A stretch of DNA of 25,244 bases from a virus: positions 1 through 25,244 of the IMG/VR virus record IMGVR_UViG_3300010299_000058; one strand, given 5' to 3'. Shown here in pieces: positions 2,763 through 16,240 of the stretch. Position numbers and translations under genes: made by a program. The notes under the pieces are model-generated. The model had not been told where the DNA came from and did no database searches. It saw only the letters and a program-made list of their open reading frames with translations. The stretch's first letter is position 1, and the number at the start of each line of letters is the position of its first letter.

Positions 2763-3581
2763 ATGCCAGAATTACCAGAGGTTGCATTAACAGCAATAAA
2801 ACTAAATGAAAGAATTGGTGGTACAAAATTACACCAGATAAATATAAAAGGTGGGCGTTACCTTAAGCACGGAAAGCCTGAAGGGCTGATTGAGTTGGAA
2901 CGTAGATTCCCTTGTACAATTGAAGAGGTAGATTTTCACGGTAAGTTATTAACAATGAAACTTAAAGACTCAGCTGGTAAAAATTGGTGGATGTGGAATA
3001 CATTTGGAATGAGTGGTGGATGGAAGTCCAAACAGTCTAAACATGGTCATGTTGAATTTGTAACAGACGCTGGAAATTTTTATTATACAGATGCCAGAAA
3101 TTTTGGAACAATCAAATTTACAGACAGTCTTCAAAAAACAGAAGATAAAATAGCCACCAAAGGTCCTAACCATATAAAGGAAGAAATATCTGATGATTTA
3201 TTCAAACAAAGAATTCAGATGGCTGGTGATAAAAACATCTGTAAAGTTTTAATGGACCAGCGATATATTTCAGGTATTGGTAATTATATCAAGGCTGAGG
3301 TTTTATATAGATGCAGGATATCTCCTCACAGGACAACCGGCTCATTAACAGACGAGGAATTTAGTCTATTAAATAAATACACCAATGAGGTAATATGGGG
3401 CTCCTTTTATAAAGGTGGTGCTACGCTACGTTCCTATTTAGGTTTAGATTTTGACAAGGGAAACTATGTATTTCATTTTAAAGTATACGGCAGGTCCAAA
3501 TGCGACAATGGTTATAAGGTAATTAGAGAGGAAACGCCAGATGGTAGAACCACACATTGGGTAAAAGAAATTCAAAAATAA
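2763..3581 (+). CDS. mutM: Fpg/Nei-family DNA glycosylase lacking the usual zinc finger
   Basis: A 272-residue base-excision enzyme of the formamidopyrimidine-DNA glycosylase (Fpg/MutM, Nei) family, which removes oxidised bases and cuts the abasic site. It begins MPELPEV with the catalytic Pro2 and Glu3. Lys61 in FHGKLLTM fits the conserved lysine of the N-terminal domain. MDQRYISGIGNYIKAE (residues 165-180) is the helix-two-turn-helix DNA-binding motif, including Asn174. The C-terminus VYGRSKCDNGYKV...PDGRTTHWVKEIQK aligns with the zinc-finger hairpin and keeps the Arg (262), but only one Cys (247) of the expected four remains. This resembles the zincless fingers known in NEIL1 and some viral and plant relatives. 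Substrate preference (8-oxoguanine versus oxidised pyrimidines) cannot be settled. Confidence 0.93.
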   Translation: MPELPEVALTAIKLNERIGGTKLHQINIKGGRYLKHGKPEGLIELERRFPCTIEEVDFHGKLLTMKLKDSAGKNWWMWNTFGMSGGWKSKQSKHGHVEFVTDAGNFYYTDARNFGTIKFTDSLQKTEDKIATKGPNHIKEEISDDLFKQRIQMAGDKNICKVLMDQRYISGIGNYIKAEVLYRCRISPHRTTGSLTDEEFSLLNKYTNEVIWGSFYKGGATLRSYLGLDFDKGNYVFHFKVYGRSKCDNGYKVIREETPDGRTTHWVKEIQK

Positions 3582-3630
3582 ACCTCTAAAAATTTCTCTA
3601 TGTCGTAAATATTTTGTATATTAGCTATAT
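3582..3630 (+). promoter_or_regulatory. class A phage promoter-like element, copy 2 (divergent)
   Basis: TATATTAG at 3617-3624 followed by CTATATAAATTAAAACAA, as in copy 1. The upstream block is altered: no TTG lies 35 nt before the core (the bases there are ACC), and TGTCAAAAG becomes TGTCGTAAA. It precedes uvsE, with 24 nt from the core to its ATG. Confidence 0.65.
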
Positions 3631-3648
3631 AAATTAAAACAAATCACT

Positions 3649-4575: not shown

Positions 4576-5187
4576 ATGAGAAAGTCAAAAAGAAATTATA
4601 GTTATACAACAAATAAGGAAGACAAGGAGTTGGTAAAAAAATATTTGGAGGGTGATACAAGTGCATTTACTCCTTTATTCCATAAATACAAAAACATATT
4701 TTTTCACAATGCAGTAAGGTGGTTTAGCTATAAGGAGATAGAAATCGAAGATATGGCAATGGAGTTTCTTGGTAGAATTTCATCTAAAATTCATATGTAT
4801 GACCCAGAAAAATCTTTGTTCTCAACGTGGATTACAAACAGCATGAAAAACTTTATGATAGAATATCACGGTCGTAAAAAGAACAAACCTCATAAAGGAC
4901 TTTCAATTGAGGATTTAGGCTATACCGATAAGGATGGCAATAAGGTATTGGATTCAATAAGAGATGAACATACTCTGAACGAAGTTGAAAGGCTTTCATA
5001 TAGAAAATTAATCAAGGAAATGATTAACTCATTGAGTAAAGAGGACGCCAAAATATTTCAGGAACATTTCATCAATGGAAATTCCCAATATGATACTGCA
5101 GATATATTAGGCCTTCCTAGAAATACAATGTGGTACAGAGTCAAAAAGATTAAAAAGCATCTACAGAAATATAAAAATTTATTGTAA
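4576..5187 (+). CDS. sigma-70 family (ECF-like) sigma factor
   Basis: A 203-residue protein with the two-domain layout of small sigma factors. Residues 17-103 resemble region 2: KKYLEGDTSAFTPLFHKYKN, then EDMAMEFLGRI, then FSTWITNSMKNFMIEYHGRK, which fits the -10 recognition helix. Residues 145-200 resemble region 4, with a helix-turn-helix in YDTADILGLPRNTMWYRVKK. It should bind host core RNA polymerase and direct it to phage promoters. Which promoter class it reads is not shown by sequence. It follows uvsE by 12 nt and its stop lies just before class A copy 3, so feedback on class A promoters is possible. A second sigma-like gene lies at 19638. Confidence 0.85.
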   Translation: MRKSKRNYSYTTNKEDKELVKKYLEGDTSAFTPLFHKYKNIFFHNAVRWFSYKEIEIEDMAMEFLGRISSKIHMYDPEKSLFSTWITNSMKNFMIEYHGRKKNKPHKGLSIEDLGYTDKDGNKVLDSIRDEHTLNEVERLSYRKLIKEMINSLSKEDAKIFQEHFINGNSQYDTADILGLPRNTMWYRVKKIKKHLQKYKNLL

Positions 5188-5192
5188 AAAAC

Positions 5193-5240
5193 TTGCCTAA
5201 AAATTTTTTTATTTCAAATATTTTTAGTATATTAGCTATA
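5193..5240 (+). promoter_or_regulatory. class A phage promoter-like element, copy 3
   Basis: TTG at 5193-5195 and TATATTAG at 5228-5235, offset 35 nt. The leader is the long form (GGAAATTAAAGGATAACACA) and runs 42 nt from core to ATG at 5278. Confidence 0.75.
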
Positions 5241-5266
5241 GGAAATTAAAGGATAACACAACTAAA
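5198..5266 (+). repeat. 69-bp direct repeat of promoter plus leader, copy 1
   Basis: These 69 bases are identical to 9293-9361. The identity covers the A/T tracts, the TATATTAG core and the leader up to ACTAAA, then stops before the start codon. The genes that follow are unrelated. Confidence 0.85.
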
Positions 5267-6340: not shown

Positions 6341-6529
6341 ATGAAAAAACTGATTGTAAAATACAAAATTTTCAAAAGAAAAATTGTTAGAAATTTTATG
6401 CAACATGCAGCTGATGTTATTATAAGTCAGATTGAAAAAACGAACGATGTTTCGAAAATAAACTACCTATACAGTTTAGGTATGGAGTTAGACATGTGGG
6501 CAAATTTTTACAAAATAAAATTAAAATAA
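6341..6529 (+). CDS. small basic hypothetical protein
   Basis: A 62-residue protein starting MKKLIVKYKIFKRKIVRNFM, strongly basic at the N-terminus and more acidic later (KTNDVSKINYLYSLGMELDM). It begins 1 nt after the previous stop and ends exactly where class A copy 4 begins, so it closes this operon. No domain is recognised. Confidence 0.6.
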   Translation: MKKLIVKYKIFKRKIVRNFMQHAADVIISQIEKTNDVSKINYLYSLGMELDMWANFYKIKLK

Positions 6530-6579
6530 TTGCCTAAATATTTCTCTATGTCAAAAGAATTTAGTATATTAGCTATATA
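6530..6579 (+). promoter_or_regulatory. class A phage promoter-like element, copy 4
   Basis: TTG at 6530-6532, TATATTAG at 6565-6572, offset 35 nt, then CTATATAATTAAAAAACAACGTT leading to the ATG at 6596. It begins on the base after the previous gene's stop codon. Confidence 0.75.
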
Positions 6580-6595
6580 ATTAAAAAACAACGTT

Positions 6596-7466: not shown

Positions 7467-7480
7467 GACAAAAGCTTGTG

Positions 7481-7490
7481 ATATTTATTT
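7481..7490 (+). promoter_or_regulatory. class B motif (ATATTTATTT) before the structured RNA region
   Basis: ATATTTATTT, shared with sites before phoH and several late or structural genes. Here it stands 15 nt after a stop codon at the start of the gene-free region, where a transcript for the RNAs below would begin. Confidence 0.45.
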
Positions 7491-7494
7491 AAGC

Positions 7495-7830
7495 TAAAAT
7501 TAAAACGATCTTTGAAAAATTAAAGGACACTCAAACAATCGACGGATTAAGTAGAGTGAGTTGTGTGACCGAATAAACTGTTAACAGGAGCAGTTAAGGT
7601 ACTCGAACAGAACGATGGTTCACTAAGGCCTCAAATGAGGAACAGCATCGGAATAACTACCGGGTTCGAGGTTTTTGTCAAAAACAGAAAATTGGATTCT
7701 GTAAAGACATTTAGGTAAGCGAGAGCGAAATCCTAATTTATGACTGAACAACGCAAAGAGTATGTGGCGTAAGGTACACTTGATAGTTGTGGTAACTATA
7801 TACAATGCAAAAGGCTCGGCCGTTTTTTGT
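7495..7830 (+). ncRNA. candidate structured non-coding RNA of unknown class
   Basis: This gene-free stretch has many exact inverted repeats. CTCGAAC (7602-7608) pairs with GTTCGAG (7664-7670). Inside, CGATGGTTC (7613-7621) pairs with GAAC (7640-7643) and CATCG (7646-7650), and inside that CCTC pairs with GAGG (7629-7640). Further stems are CACTC/GAGTG (7528-7558), AACTG/CAGTT (7576-7595), ACAGAA/TTCTGT (7684-7702), TTAGG/CCTAA (7711-7736) and ATAGTT/AACTAT (7783-7799). GGC-TCG-GCC with six T (7813-7828) could end it. I looked for RNase P and group I/II intron signatures and saw none. A class B motif lies just upstream and a tmRNA-like RNA follows. Boundaries are approximate. A ROOL- or GOLLD-type large phage RNA is possible but not recognised. 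Confidence 0.6.
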
Positions 7831-7939
7831 GAGTATATGAAAGGCATTTCAAGATAGTGGTTGTCTAACTTAAAGCAGCTCGACGATTTGAAGGTATTCC
7901 ATAATCCTTCCACAGCGTTCCTTTTTATTTTTACATCTT

Positions 7940-8053
7940 GGGGTTGACTCGGATTTGACAGGGATAACGAAGGCATTAAACGACCAAGTGATTCGCCACC
8001 CTCCACAAGGAGGAGTTTTCAACTGGACGAGGGTTCGAAACCCTCCAACTCCA
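7940..8053 (+). ncRNA. short tmRNA-like RNA: tRNA-like domain without a tag-coding region
   Basis: The ends of this 114-nt stretch match the tRNA-like domain of tmRNA. GGGGTTG (7940-7946) pairs with CAACTCC (8046-8052), giving a 7-bp acceptor stem with a G3-U70 wobble, the alanine identity pair, followed by discriminator A8053. GGAC precedes a perfect T arm: GAGGG (8029-8033), loop TTCGAAA, CCCTC (8041-8045), joined directly to the acceptor strand as in tmRNA. GGATTTGACAGGG (7951-7963) matches the tmRNA D-region consensus GGATTCGAC. Bacterial tmRNAs are about 300-400 nt and carry a tag frame plus pseudoknots; here only about 65 nt lie between the D and T regions, with hairpin CCTCC-ACAA-GGAGG (8000-8013) and no plausible tag frame with a stop. 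The CCA end is not encoded. Function is unknown: it could be a decoy, a reduced tmRNA, or one part of a larger RNA. Confidence 0.72.
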
Positions 8054-8090
8054 CAATTTAAAATAATTCCCCATTCTTTTATCTATACTG

Positions 8091-8100
8091 ATATTTATTT
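8091..8100 (+). promoter_or_regulatory. class B motif (ATATTTATTT) next to phoH
   Basis: The same ATATTTATTT as at 7481. It ends 2 nt before the first possible phoH ATG at 8103, so if it is a promoter the transcript would start inside the first codons, favouring the later ATG at 8181. Confidence 0.4.
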
Positions 8101-8102
8101 GT

Positions 8103-8843
8103 ATGGAAAACATTAATCATGAAGGCCACGTTTCTGGCCATAAGGTTTCAAAACCTAGAAATGTTGTAGGTACAAATAAAATGAAAAAACCTCCTAAAAA
8201 TCCAATTAAATTTAACATACAGTTAAATGAAGAACAGAAGGAGGCCAAATCAATAATCATGGCAAATGCCGTAACAATCCTAACAGGAAAGGCAGGTTCA
8301 GGTAAAACATTATTAGCATGTCAAACTGCACTTGACCAATTCTTTACAAGACAAATCGAAAGAATATACATAGTCAGGTCAACTGTTTCAAAAGAAGACA
8401 TTGGGTATTTACCTGGTGACCTTTATGAAAAAATGGAACCTTGGATGCAGCCGATTATAGGCAATATGCATTTATTATATAACAAGGAAAAGATTGACCA
8501 ATTACTTGCTGAAGGTATTTTGTCTATTGTTCCTATTGCTTTTATGAGAGGAAGAACATTTACAGATTCCTGCATTATAGTTGACGAGGCACAGAACATT
8601 ACCGATGAACAGTTGGAAATGATATTATCACGTTTAGGTATTGGAAGTAAAATGATTCTTTGTGGAGATGCTGCTCAAAACGATTTTAAAAGAAAATCAG
8701 ATTCAGGTTTCGAGGAGCTTTTAAAAATGTCTAACAATGTTGATGATTTAGGTTTATATCAACTACAGAAAAATCATAGACATAGTGTTGTTGACAAAAT
8801 CCTAAATGAATATTCAAAAATAAGAGAAGAAAAAAGAAAATAA
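8103..8843 (+). CDS. phoH: PhoH-like ATPase
   Basis: A 246-residue PhoH-family P-loop ATPase, common in large phages. The Walker A motif is GKAGSGKT (residues 62-69) and Walker B is IIVDEAQN (158-165), followed by LILCGDAAQND-like sequence (MILCGDAAQND) and NHRHS near the end, as in the superfamily-1 helicase-like PhoH core. The role in phages is not established; the family links to nucleotide or RNA metabolism. The first ATG (8103) lies immediately after the class B motif and has no ribosome-binding site. The ATG at 8181 (MKKPPKNPIKFNIQL), in the context AAATAAAATG, gives a protein 26 residues shorter and may be the true start. It is the first gene after the structured RNA region. Confidence 0.92.
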   Translation: MENINHEGHVSGHKVSKPRNVVGTNKMKKPPKNPIKFNIQLNEEQKEAKSIIMANAVTILTGKAGSGKTLLACQTALDQFFTRQIERIYIVRSTVSKEDIGYLPGDLYEKMEPWMQPIIGNMHLLYNKEKIDQLLAEGILSIVPIAFMRGRTFTDSCIIVDEAQNITDEQLEMILSRLGIGSKMILCGDAAQNDFKRKSDSGFEELLKMSNNVDDLGLYQLQKNHRHSVVDKILNEYSKIREEKRK

Positions 8844-9264: not shown

Positions 9265-9287
9265 AAATCATAATTTTTGTAAAATAG

Positions 9288-9335
9288 TTGTTTAAAAATT
9301 TTTTTATTTCAAATATTTTTAGTATATTAGCTATA
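9288..9335 (+). promoter_or_regulatory. class A phage promoter-like element, copy 5
   Basis: TTG at 9288-9290 and TATATTAG at 9323-9330, offset 35 nt, with the long leader reaching the ATG at 9373 after 42 nt. Confidence 0.75.
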
Positions 9336-9361
9336 GGAAATTAAAGGATAACACAACTAAA
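9293..9361 (+). repeat. 69-bp direct repeat of promoter plus leader, copy 2
   Basis: Identical over 69 bases to 5198-5266, ending just before the bases that contact the start codon. Confidence 0.85.
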
Positions 9362-11056: not shown

Positions 11057-11282
11057 AATATTCAAGCTTTGTCTTTACGACGATGATTCTGTAACATTTG
11101 AAAATGTTATAACTGGACTTACAACTGCATTGGGGTGGTCAGTATATCAATCTGAACAAATAGCACTTATTGTTCATTACAATGGCAAGGCACTTGTAAA
11201 AAAAGATACACTTGAAGAGTTACAACCAATAGAAAAAGAATTGATGAGTTATGGATTAACTGTAAAAATAATTGAAAAATAA
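11046..11282 (+). CDS. clpS: ClpS-like N-degron adaptor
   Basis: A 78-residue protein matching the ClpS core. LCLYDDDSVTFENVITGLTT aligns with the family segment of the form LLNDDYTPMEFVVEVLQ, and IALIVHYNGKALVKKDTLEE with IMLTVHEEGKAVVGVYPLEE. The ligand residues are Asp12, Asp13, Asp14 and His44; the 30-residue Asp14 to His44 spacing equals that in ClpS. The Asn that normally begins the NDD triplet is Asp here. ClpS brings proteins with destabilising N-termini to ClpAP. Only about 11 residues precede the core, so the flexible N-terminal extension needed for handover to ClpA is largely missing. The GTG start has a GAGGAGG site. It closes the operon before the ligase promoter. Confidence 0.82.
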   Translation: MKNKIFKLCLYDDDSVTFENVITGLTTALGWSVYQSEQIALIVHYNGKALVKKDTLEELQPIEKELMSYGLTVKIIEK

Positions 11283-11330
11283 TTGCTCAAAAATTTTTTT
11301 ATGTCAAAAGAATTTTGTATATTAGCTATA
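11283..11330 (+). promoter_or_regulatory. class A phage promoter-like element, copy 6
   Basis: TTG at 11283-11285 and TATATTAG at 11318-11325, offset 35 nt, starting on the base after the ClpS-like stop. The leader is the long GGAAATTAAAGG form; the ligase ATG is 39 nt after the core. Confidence 0.75.
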
Positions 11331-11364
11331 GGAAATTAAAGGAAACAACTAAAATATACGGAGT

Positions 11365-12666
11365 ATGAATTCAAATGAAATTTATAAATTAGACACACTA
11401 ATCAAAGAATTAGCAAACACATCTTCTTCTAATAATAAGAAACAAATTCTCAAGGCAGCCTTAGAAGGCGAAAACGCCGAGTTTCTTAAAAAGGTATTTT
11501 TCTATACCTATAATCCATATTTCAAATATTACGTATCTTCAGCAAACTGCAAAAAGCATAAAGACTTAATCGTTGATACACATGGTGATAATTTATTCGC
11601 GTTGTTAGATGCTCTCAGAGGGCGCTTAATCACAGGGAATGAAGCCATTGCTGCAGTCAATTCAATGAAGTTATATTATCCTGGTTATAGTCACATTATT
11701 GATTATATTATTGATGGAGATTTAAAATGTAGAGTTGCTGGAAGTTTAATAAACAAAGTTGCTCCTGGTACAATACCTACATTTGATGTTGCATTGGCAC
11801 AGAAATACGAGCCTAAATATTGTGACTTTGAATGTGAAACTTGGTATGCGTCTAGAAAATTAGATGGTGTACGTTGCATTATTTATATAGACGAAAATGG
11901 AGAAGCTAAAGCTTATTCTAGACAAGGCAAGGAATTTGAAACATTAGGAAATGTGTTGTCAGATGCTGAATCTTTAGGATTTACCAATACCGTTTTTGAT
12001 GGTGAGTTATGTATAGTTGATGAAAATGGAAATGAAGATTTTCAATCTGTGATGAAAGAGATTCGTAGAAAAAATCACACTATCAAAAATCCAAAATTCA
12101 TTATGTTCGATATGATATCAGCAAATGAATTTAACACGCAATCTTCTACTAGAACTTTAAGTCAACGAATTGAGAAGATGAAAGAATTAGAACCTTATTT
12201 ATTTGATTCATTTGAGTTGCTAGATATGCAAATTGTAGAAAGTGATTCTGATTTTGCTCTTTGGCAAAAGATGGCAAAAGACGGTAACTGGGAAGGGTTC
12301 ATGATCCGTAAAGATTGTGAATACGAAGGTAAACGTTCTAATAACTTACTTAAAGTTAAAACATTTTTCGATGCTGAATATAAAGTTATTGATGTTGAGA
12401 TGGGGCAATTTAGAATGGTTGAAAATGGTAAGGAAGTTACACACGAAGTATTGTCAAATGTTTTTATTGAACACAAAGGTTTTAAGGTTCGTGTAGGTTC
12501 TGGATTTTCAATAGACCAAAGAAAAAAATATTATGACAACCCAAATGAAATTTTAGGTAAAACAATTACTGTGGCTTATTTCGAGGAAACAAAAAACCAA
12601 GAAGGTGGTGTTTCATTGAGATTCCCAACGGTTAAACATGTTTACGATAATGGTAGAGATTGTTAA
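11365..12666 (+). CDS. ATP-dependent DNA ligase
   Basis: A 433-residue ATP-dependent DNA ligase, which seals nicks during replication and repair. Nucleotidyltransferase motifs are in order: motif I KLDGVR with the adenylated Lys165, motif III FDGELC (211-216), IIIa around KFIMFDM (244-250), motif IV EGFMIRK (310-316) and motif V LLKVKTF (328-334). An OB-fold domain follows (VIDVEMGQFRMV to the end). The N-terminal 150 residues form a helical DNA-binding region. The length is close to T4 ligase (487 aa) but shorter. It is read from class A copy 6 and followed by copy 7, so it is a single-gene unit. It would complete excision repair begun by denV, the glycosylase or UvsE. Confidence 0.94.
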   Translation: MNSNEIYKLDTLIKELANTSSSNNKKQILKAALEGENAEFLKKVFFYTYNPYFKYYVSSANCKKHKDLIVDTHGDNLFALLDALRGRLITGNEAIAAVNSMKLYYPGYSHIIDYIIDGDLKCRVAGSLINKVAPGTIPTFDVALAQKYEPKYCDFECETWYASRKLDGVRCIIYIDENGEAKAYSRQGKEFETLGNVLSDAESLGFTNTVFDGELCIVDENGNEDFQSVMKEIRRKNHTIKNPKFIMFDMISANEFNTQSSTRTLSQRIEKMKELEPYLFDSFELLDMQIVESDSDFALWQKMAKDGNWEGFMIRKDCEYEGKRSNNLLKVKTFFDAEYKVIDVEMGQFRMVENGKEVTHEVLSNVFIEHKGFKVRVGSGFSIDQRKKYYDNPNEILGKTITVAYFEETKNQEGGVSLRFPTVKHVYDNGRDC

Positions 12667-12683
12667 TTTTTTTTTGAAAAAAG

Positions 12684-12731
12684 TTGCTCAAAAATTTCTC
12701 TATGTCAAAAGAATTTAGTATATTAGTAGTA
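12684..12731 (+). promoter_or_regulatory. class A phage promoter-like element, copy 7
   Basis: TTG at 12684-12686 and TATATTAG at 12719-12726, offset 35 nt. The downstream CTATAT becomes TAGTAT. A T9 run followed by GAAAA lies just upstream after the ligase stop, as before copies 1 and 8. Confidence 0.75.
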
Positions 12732-12752
12732 TAAATTAAAACAGTTATAAAA

Positions 12753-15160: not shown

Positions 15161-16162
15161 ATGAAAAAATATTTTTTACCTATTCTAGTTGCAATCTTTG
15201 CTCTAGGTTTATCAGCATCGGCTGCATATTTTTCTGTTTTAGGTTTAACAAAACTTTTTGCTGGAGCTGTTGTTGGGACTGCAATTGTGTGTTCTTTTAT
15301 TGAAGGTGCCAAATTAATAATCGCAAGTGTATTACATCAATATAGCAAAAAAATTGGTATACTTACAAATGTTTTTTTGGTAATTGCCTTATTGGTGGCA
15401 ATGTCAATAACATCTATGGGAGTTTATGGATATCTTACAAATGCCTATCAATCAACTGCAAACAAACTGGAAATAATAGACGGCAAAGTTAATGTTTTGA
15501 ATCTTAAAAGAGAAAGATTTAAATCGTCACTAACATCACATGAAAATGAAAAAGCTGAGATAAACATAGTTATTTCAGAATTGACAAAAGGTTTATCAAA
15601 TAATACAATTCAATATAAAGATAGAGAAACTGGACAAATTATTACAACAACATCTAGTTCGACCAGAAAAATACTTAAGGCGCAGTTGGATGATGCCAAG
15701 ATACAGAGAGAAAAGTTAACTAAAAATATTGAAAGTTTAACTGATAGTATTACAAAGTTAGATATTAAAATATTAGATATAAATAGTAATAATGAGATTG
15801 CGTCTGAAATAGGACCTTTGAAATTTATACAAAAACTTACAAATGTACCTATGGAAAAGATAATTAATATATTGACTTTAGTAATAGTATTAGTTGTCGA
15901 TCCACTCGCAATTGTTTTGGTAATTGTATTTAATAAAATTACAGAGCGAGAAAAGAAAGAAAATAAAAATATTATTCAGAAAAATAATATTGAAAAAGAA
16001 AAACCTGTTATATTAGAAATAGAAAATCTTGAAAATGACATTGAACCAGAGTCAGAAAAAGAACCAGATATCGAAATCCAAGACGACACTGAAATTGGCC
16101 AAAAAACAATTAATAAGGATTTGTATGGTGATGGTCAAAAAGGTAGAAAACCTACAGAATAA
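15161..16162 (+). CDS. membrane protein with four transmembrane segments and coiled coil
   Basis: A 333-residue membrane protein. Three hydrophobic helices lie at about residues 5-27, 30-52 and 66-92 (PILVAIFALGLSASAAYF; FAGAVVGTAIVCSFIEGAKL; VFLVIALLVAMSITSMGVYG). A charged helical, probably coiled-coil part spans about 100-215. A fourth helix follows at about 236-258 (ILTLVIVLVVDPLAIVLVIV), then a very acidic tail. Similar multi-pass proteins with an internal coiled coil occur in other large myoviruses without known function (recollection, not checked). It is the first gene after the terminator and class B motif. Confidence 0.75.
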   Translation: MKKYFLPILVAIFALGLSASAAYFSVLGLTKLFAGAVVGTAIVCSFIEGAKLIIASVLHQYSKKIGILTNVFLVIALLVAMSITSMGVYGYLTNAYQSTANKLEIIDGKVNVLNLKRERFKSSLTSHENEKAEINIVISELTKGLSNNTIQYKDRETGQIITTTSSSTRKILKAQLDDAKIQREKLTKNIESLTDSITKLDIKILDINSNNEIASEIGPLKFIQKLTNVPMEKIINILTLVIVLVVDPLAIVLVIVFNKITEREKKENKNIIQKNNIEKEKPVILEIENLENDIEPESEKEPDIEIQDDTEIGQKTINKDLYGDGQKGRKPTE

Positions 16163-16178
16163 TTTTTTTTGAAAATAA

Positions 16179-16226
16179 TTGCTAAAAAATTTCTCTATGT
16201 CAAAAATTTTTGTTATATTAGTATAA
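16179..16226 (+). promoter_or_regulatory. class A phage promoter-like element, copy 8
   Basis: TTG at 16179-16181 and TATATTAG at 16214-16221, offset 35 nt. The region between is partly changed (CAAAAATTTTTGT) and the leader is short, 19 nt to the ATG at 16241. It is the only class A copy in the late-looking half. Confidence 0.7.
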
Positions 16227-16240
16227 AATAAGAAATTAAT

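Follow-up and report, generated by a model that had tools for sequence, protein, structure and literature searches.

The closest described counterpart of the RNA reported here is the tmRNA of mycobacteriophage DS6A, which is listed as 'TLD only', TLD being the tRNA-like domain (PMC4131195). That source, citing Mao et al. 2009, states that tmRNA in E. coli is strongly inhibited by a DS6A-like TLD molecule, chargeable or otherwise, perhaps by SmpB titration. A passage of PMC11915505 citing the same work likewise has the DS6A-like form inhibiting endogenous tmRNA in E. coli. Molecules classed as 'standard, no CDS' number 9 among 97,179 tmRNA sequences (PMC11915505), and one of them is named from a phage (PMC11915505, PMC4131195). 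In vitro, the TLD and SmpB suffice for ribosome binding, alanine transfer and polyalanine synthesis, with the chain passing from TLD to TLD (PMC2481249). There are also mitochondrial tmRNAs that have no tag frame and yet are retained together with SmpB (PMC11915505). A search of the open literature, with subscription papers outside its coverage, turned up no phage-wide survey of RNAs like these.

A tag-less tmRNA in the window

The window, meaning the whole 25,244-base virus record that was analysed, encodes a tag-less phage tmRNA at 7940..8053 on the plus strand, which is also the strand of phoH and of all the RNA features below. It is a tRNA-like domain closed on itself, without the mRNA-like part. 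This mini-tmRNA, consisting of the tRNA-like domain and a short helix-2 arm with no tag, runs from the 5' G1 to the discriminator A73. It is a larger new example of the already described, rarely reported TLD-only phage tmRNA. An earlier note on this sequence had stated that no phage RNA was known in this form, which is incorrect in view of the prior listing of DS6A (PMC4131195).

The 5' acceptor strand GGGGTTG (7940..7946) and the 3' strand CAACTCC (8046-8052), the latter followed by the discriminator A at 8053 (together 8046..8053), form 7/7 pairs, the third being the G-U pair of G3 with U70 (T8050). The bases after the discriminator are CAA (ACAA) instead of an encoded CCA, so CCA addition is needed. 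Inside the acceptor are a tmRNA-type GGAUUUGAC D region (GGATTTGAC, 7951..7959), also placed there by the Rfam alignment; the conserved GGAC preceding the T stem (8025..8028), its first G closing helix 2; and the T arm GAGGG-TTCGAAA-CCCTC (8029..8045). The window thus has everything by which a tmRNA tRNA-like domain is recognized: a GG(A/U)UUYGAC D region, GGAC, a UUCRA T loop, and a 7-bp acceptor with G3-U70 and A73. The acceptor stem with G3-U70, the D region, GGAC and the T arm had been described in the earlier note, and all lie where it placed them within 7940-8053. G3-U70 and A73 are the identity elements by which AlaRS charges tmRNA, and the D/T elbow is intact. The DS6A type is matched as well, in that a complete one-piece tRNA-like domain without a coding part occurs in a virus record.

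The remainder of a standard tmRNA is missing. Reading the three frames of 7960-8024 revealed no resume codon and no tag frame with its stop; two frames are open throughout, whereas in the third, stops follow after 1 and 3 further codons. Pseudoknots PK1-PK4 are absent as well, with 302 positions of the Rfam tmRNA model deleted and just 65 nt from the D region to GGAC. The earlier note had likewise described one strong hairpin and no plausible tag frame between the D and T parts. ARAGORN, which requires a tag, calls neither a tmRNA nor a tRNA in the window. There is no canonical tRNA anticodon arm, as judged by the lack of an ARAGORN tRNA and of a reported Rfam tRNA match. Nor is the order that of a permuted two-piece tmRNA, since the 5' acceptor strand at 7940 stands before the 3' strand at 8046.

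The Rfam models had been proposed in the earlier note as a check. Over the whole window, cmscan scores the tmRNA model RF00023 at 54.9 bits (E 3.3e-19) against a curated cut-off of 47, and its alignment to 7940-8053 matches both model ends, 1 and 374, across the deletion of 302 of the 374 positions. That note's reading, a tmRNA of alanine type pared down to the exclusion of the tag domain, is right. We also built a covariance model, R1, from 18 other viral RNAs, leaving out the window and two relatives (L092 and L121). Searched over the whole window record, R1 matches exactly 7940-8053 (51.4 bits, E 3.9e-11), and it scores 67.6 and 57.0 bits on the whole records of L092 and L121, respectively. 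A single-window search with R1 and filters off wrongly put the 5' end at 7951 (7951-8053, 28.6 bits); in our opinion, the alignment shifted because helix 2 is irregular in the window.

That helix was located by folding the arm. Its 5' strand (CAG-G-GA-T-AAC, 7959..7968) and 3' strand (GTT-T-TC-AA-CTG, 8015..8025) form 8 bp interrupted by 1x2 and 1x1 internal loops. The outer pairs are C7959-G8025, A7960-U8024 and G7961-C8023, and the inner ones are G7963-C8020 and A7964-U8019, then A7966-U8017, A7967-U8016 and C7968-G8015. Within the arm are a weak inner stem, GGC/GCC around CCAAGTG (7972..7997), recognized from the fold and inspection of relatives, and the strong hairpin CCTCC-ACAA-GGAGG (8000..8013). 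The CCAAGTG resembles CC(a)AAGTG, which forms the cap in relatives of 74-81 nt. A continuous helix 2 closed by a short cap hairpin characterizes the viral set, and the window's helix 2, with its 8 pairs and two internal loops, may be a variant of it. Most relatives have a shorter arm, and whole-arm statistics are weak for the window alone, the 72-nt arm folding slightly better than shuffles (z -1.7). Since no close relative of the window copy was found, the covariation described below is demonstrated for the family and not for the arm of this copy.

Neighbourhood in the window

Directly downstream of the mini-tmRNA lies a phoH-like gene (8103..8843; Pfam PhoH 2e-58), whose nearest isolate relatives are in Flavobacterium phages (53% identity). 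From this match, we would guess at a Bacteroidota host. Other window genes encode DNA ligase, ClpP, peptide deformylase and a baseplate wedge subunit. Among 80 loci of PhoH relatives at about 60% identity, nothing like the mini-tmRNA occupies that place, and a Blast search of 50,697 phage records with the complete intergenic stretch gave no match.

Immediately upstream is a noncoding stretch of about 470 nt that matches structured RNAs. Two manA-like RNAs stand there in tandem, copy 1 at 7548..7741 (RF01745 32.9 bits, E 9e-9; 27 bits over 7548-7713) and copy 2 at 7710..7915 (29.8 bits, E 7.6e-8; 29 bits over 7741-7910), the latter ending 25 nt before the mini-tmRNA; both matches are below the curated cut-off of 55.2 for that family. 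A general association of mini-tmRNAs with manA RNA was considered and dropped, manA being seen in 0/45 other mini-tmRNA records. A terminator scan found no terminator-like site between the manA-like RNAs with the mini-tmRNA and phoH.

An 83-nt AT-rich repeat with the common core TAAAAATTT...GTATATTAGCTATA also occurs eight times in the window, almost always between genes. Copies 1-4 are at 1555-1637, 3559-3641, 5170-5252 and 6507-6589, and copies 5-8 at 9265-9347, 11260-11342, 12661-12743 and 16156-16238. The set looks like the phage's own promoters. A perfect 12-nt direct repeat, TGATATTTATTT, is found just before the RNA cassette (7479-7490) and again just before phoH (8089-8100); the two exact copies are possibly due to chance.

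Relatives in viruses and their covariation

Our first IMG/VR scan used a pattern made of the D motif and, after a gap of about 20-81 nt, GGAC and the T loop; an acceptor stem was not required. A perfect 7-bp acceptor was found in 40 viral contigs, and all other matches had <=5 pairs, which separates two populations. Further scans, one for GGYTTYGAC with GGGG...CTCC imposed and another with longer gaps, added 94 viral contigs. The total of 134 contigs contains 97 distinct RNAs of mini-tmRNA layout, 74-136 nt long. The majority measure 74-86 nt. The window copy, with 113 nt to C72, falls into a medium class of 103-136 nt (L121, L207, L197, L092, L195, L234 and L153). Three ambiguous contigs (L086, L090 and L124) enter the 97 as one sequence. 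In these, ARAGORN reads a 343-nt full tmRNA (L086:2976-3318) with an unlikely 30-aa glycine-rich tag, ending at the same 3' end as the 81-nt mini-tmRNA candidate.

Since the acceptor and T stems were used in selecting the sequences, their pairing does not count as independent evidence. Helix 2 was not among the selection criteria. Covariation in relatives had been proposed in the earlier note as a check on the first two stems; it is helix 2 that supplies it, strongly. In a first set of 29 distinct RNAs, with the window excluded and one member (L134) taken from the cellular-genome scan described below, the six helix-2 pairs are formed in 161/174 cells, compared with 84.2 +- 5.6 after shuffling. 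A second set of 69 distinct RNAs gives 397/414 against 200.7 +- 8.9. In an alignment of 18 sequences, 98% of the helix-2 cells are standard pairs and 111 cells are changed on both sides; sliding the partner by 1-3 columns lowers pairing to 37-52%. The closing pair of helix 2 is C-G in 30/30. G3-U70, which the viral scan did not demand, occurs in 29/29 RNAs of the first set, and A73 in 98/98 relatives. CCA is encoded in about half of them. Compensatory changes across the 97 sequences imply selection on the RNA, and selection for base pairing has preserved the same mini-tmRNA design in many phages.

With a typical sequence as query, Blast recovered full-length copies from the culturable Streptomyces phages LuckySocke (L251:796-873), pSt2308 (L252:801-878), Shaeky (L253:791-869) and BRock (L254:792-869), which R1 scores at 61.7-69.8 bits. 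All four are unannotated and lie between annotated tRNA genes in tRNA arrays. Phages EGole (L146:1456-1532) and Tomas (L147:1476-1553) have divergent versions with an altered D region (43 bits, E 2e-8). These lack GGAUUCGAC and GGAC but retain the GGG/UCC acceptor with its G-U, helix 2 and the cap, and they possibly constitute a further mini-tmRNA class.

As a control, 257 Gb of bacterial and archaeal genomes were scanned with a similar pattern, which differs slightly from that of the viral scan and has the U70CC end imposed. Of 12 matches, 11 gave no full acceptor pairing, and the five of those run through ARAGORN are all ordinary full-length tmRNAs. The sole mini-tmRNA in the 257 Gb (L134) is on a contig with a nearby phage terminase gene. 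On this evidence, with 134 contigs on the one side and one on the other, the form is viral and not cellular. It has thereby passed from a curiosity to a common phage gene, with 97 distinct viral copies and its occurrence in Streptomyces phages. It has been missed by annotation tools because they look for a tag.

The neighbours of the viral copies include terminase (L109), capsid and head protease (L003), tail (L113) and Cpn10 (L099) genes. In two contigs (L118:315-1529 and L128:3298-4512), the mini-tmRNA is inside the 3' end of a C5-cytosine methylase frame. Others are within tRNA arrays (L002, L004, L005, L106, L121, L122 and LuckySocke). No SmpB gene was found in the 41 mini-tmRNA contigs searched, most viral contigs being fragments; this is consistent with use or titration of host SmpB.

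Possible functions

From its anatomy and family, we consider it probable that the window RNA blocks host trans-translation as a tag-less tmRNA. The RNA would be cut from a longer phage transcript like a tRNA, after which CCA would be added. It would bind SmpB and, when alanylated, also EF-Tu and ribosomes with an empty A site, where it would have no resume codon and no stop to offer. With SmpB held or the A site blocked, host trans-translation would be shut down during infection, and where cleavage or stalling interrupts phage mRNAs and proteins, these would escape tagging and destruction. The invariance of G3-U70 suggests that charging matters, and this conservation favours a molecule that enters ribosomes over a mere sink for SmpB. 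The earlier note had offered a decoy for SmpB, AlaRS or EF-Tu; a decoy of this kind is the mechanism we would put first.

A minor possibility is tag-less rescue to the benefit of the phage. The alanyl-mini-tmRNA with SmpB would relieve ribosomes that have stalled with no stop codon of their nascent chain and free the mRNA, and the peptide would be released by a hydrolase or extended by further alanines. The polyalanine made by TLD and SmpB in a purified system (PMC2481249) and the mitochondrial tmRNAs kept along with SmpB despite having no tag frame (PMC11915505) speak for it, as does the invariance of the alanine identity elements, which goes beyond the need of pure SmpB titration. The effect reported in E. 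coli for a similar molecule is nevertheless inhibition, chargeable or not (PMC4131195). By analogy with the purified system, phage mini-tmRNAs might even constitute a widespread system for adding untemplated alanine to nascent chains on stalled ribosomes, although we regard this as a long shot. If so, each RNA would accept the chain via SmpB, donate one alanine and pass the chain on, and phages would be taking over ribosome rescue without tagging for host proteases. The survey makes a clear question testable: are phages switching off trans-translation, or taking it over?

We think it rather improbable that the RNA acts instead as a decoy, whether for AlaRS or for a host defence directed against tRNAs: an uncleavable alanine acceptor that has no anticodon loop. 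Invariant G3-U70 and A73, the absent anticodon arm, and the placement of several copies inside large phage tRNA arrays (L004, L005, L122 and LuckySocke) would suit such a role. AlaRS alone does not require the tmRNA-specific D region and GGAC, however, and these are conserved; full phage tRNA-Ala genes also coexist with the mini-tmRNA in the arrays of L005, L122 and Shaeky.

The earlier note also entertained half of a larger split RNA. The tag part would then be elsewhere, for example in the roughly 470 nt of noncoding, structured-RNA-matching sequence just upstream. That stretch, however, matches manA RNAs; the two acceptor strands belong to a single short RNA that its own arm closes, with no second tRNA-like half nearby; and full-length permuted phage tmRNAs such as that of MA9V-3 have the 3' piece before the 5' piece. 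We consider this very unlikely. An origin as attachment-site debris, in which an integrating phage would have carried off part of a host tmRNA gene, is hardly conceivable. Integration often takes place in tmRNA genes (PMC11915505), and the idea was entertained since some copies touch or overlap the ends of genes. Such sites, however, carry the 3' end only while the window RNA is compact with both acceptor strands and the D region, the flanking genes tested (terminase, capsid, tail, methylase and Cpn10) include no integrase, and the compensatory changes across 97 sequences refute such an origin for the family.

Comparison with known systems

The window RNA shares with the standard one-piece tmRNA (RF00023) the acceptor, D region, GGAC and T arm, and scores above the curated cut-off for that family, but the tag frame and pseudoknots are among the 302 of 374 model positions that it lacks. 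The permuted full-length tmRNAs of the crAss-like phages cr50_1 and cr114_1 and of Chryseobacterium phage MA9V-3 are phage-borne like the window RNA, but they keep the coding part. The T arm of these Bacteroidota-phage molecules is nearly identical to that of the window. In crAss-like and Chryseobacterium phages (L143, L145 and L148), ARAGORN reads permuted full-length tmRNAs whose tags do not end in the usual ALAA. Streptomyces phage Annadreamy, by comparison, has an annotated standard-form full tmRNA of 297 nt, also phage-borne and with its coding part. The jakobid and oomycete mitochondrial tmRNA (RF02544) and the ~65-bp Mallomonadaceae plastid forms likewise have no tag reading frame, but they are organellar and mostly permuted, unlike the window RNA, for which RF02544 was not reported. 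That leaves the 'TLD only' tmRNA of DS6A (tmRNA Website tmID 11587), like the window RNA a phage gene for a tRNA-like domain without tag or pseudoknots. Compared by its description, DS6A has little more than the TLD, whereas the window RNA carries a 65-nt arm with two stems.
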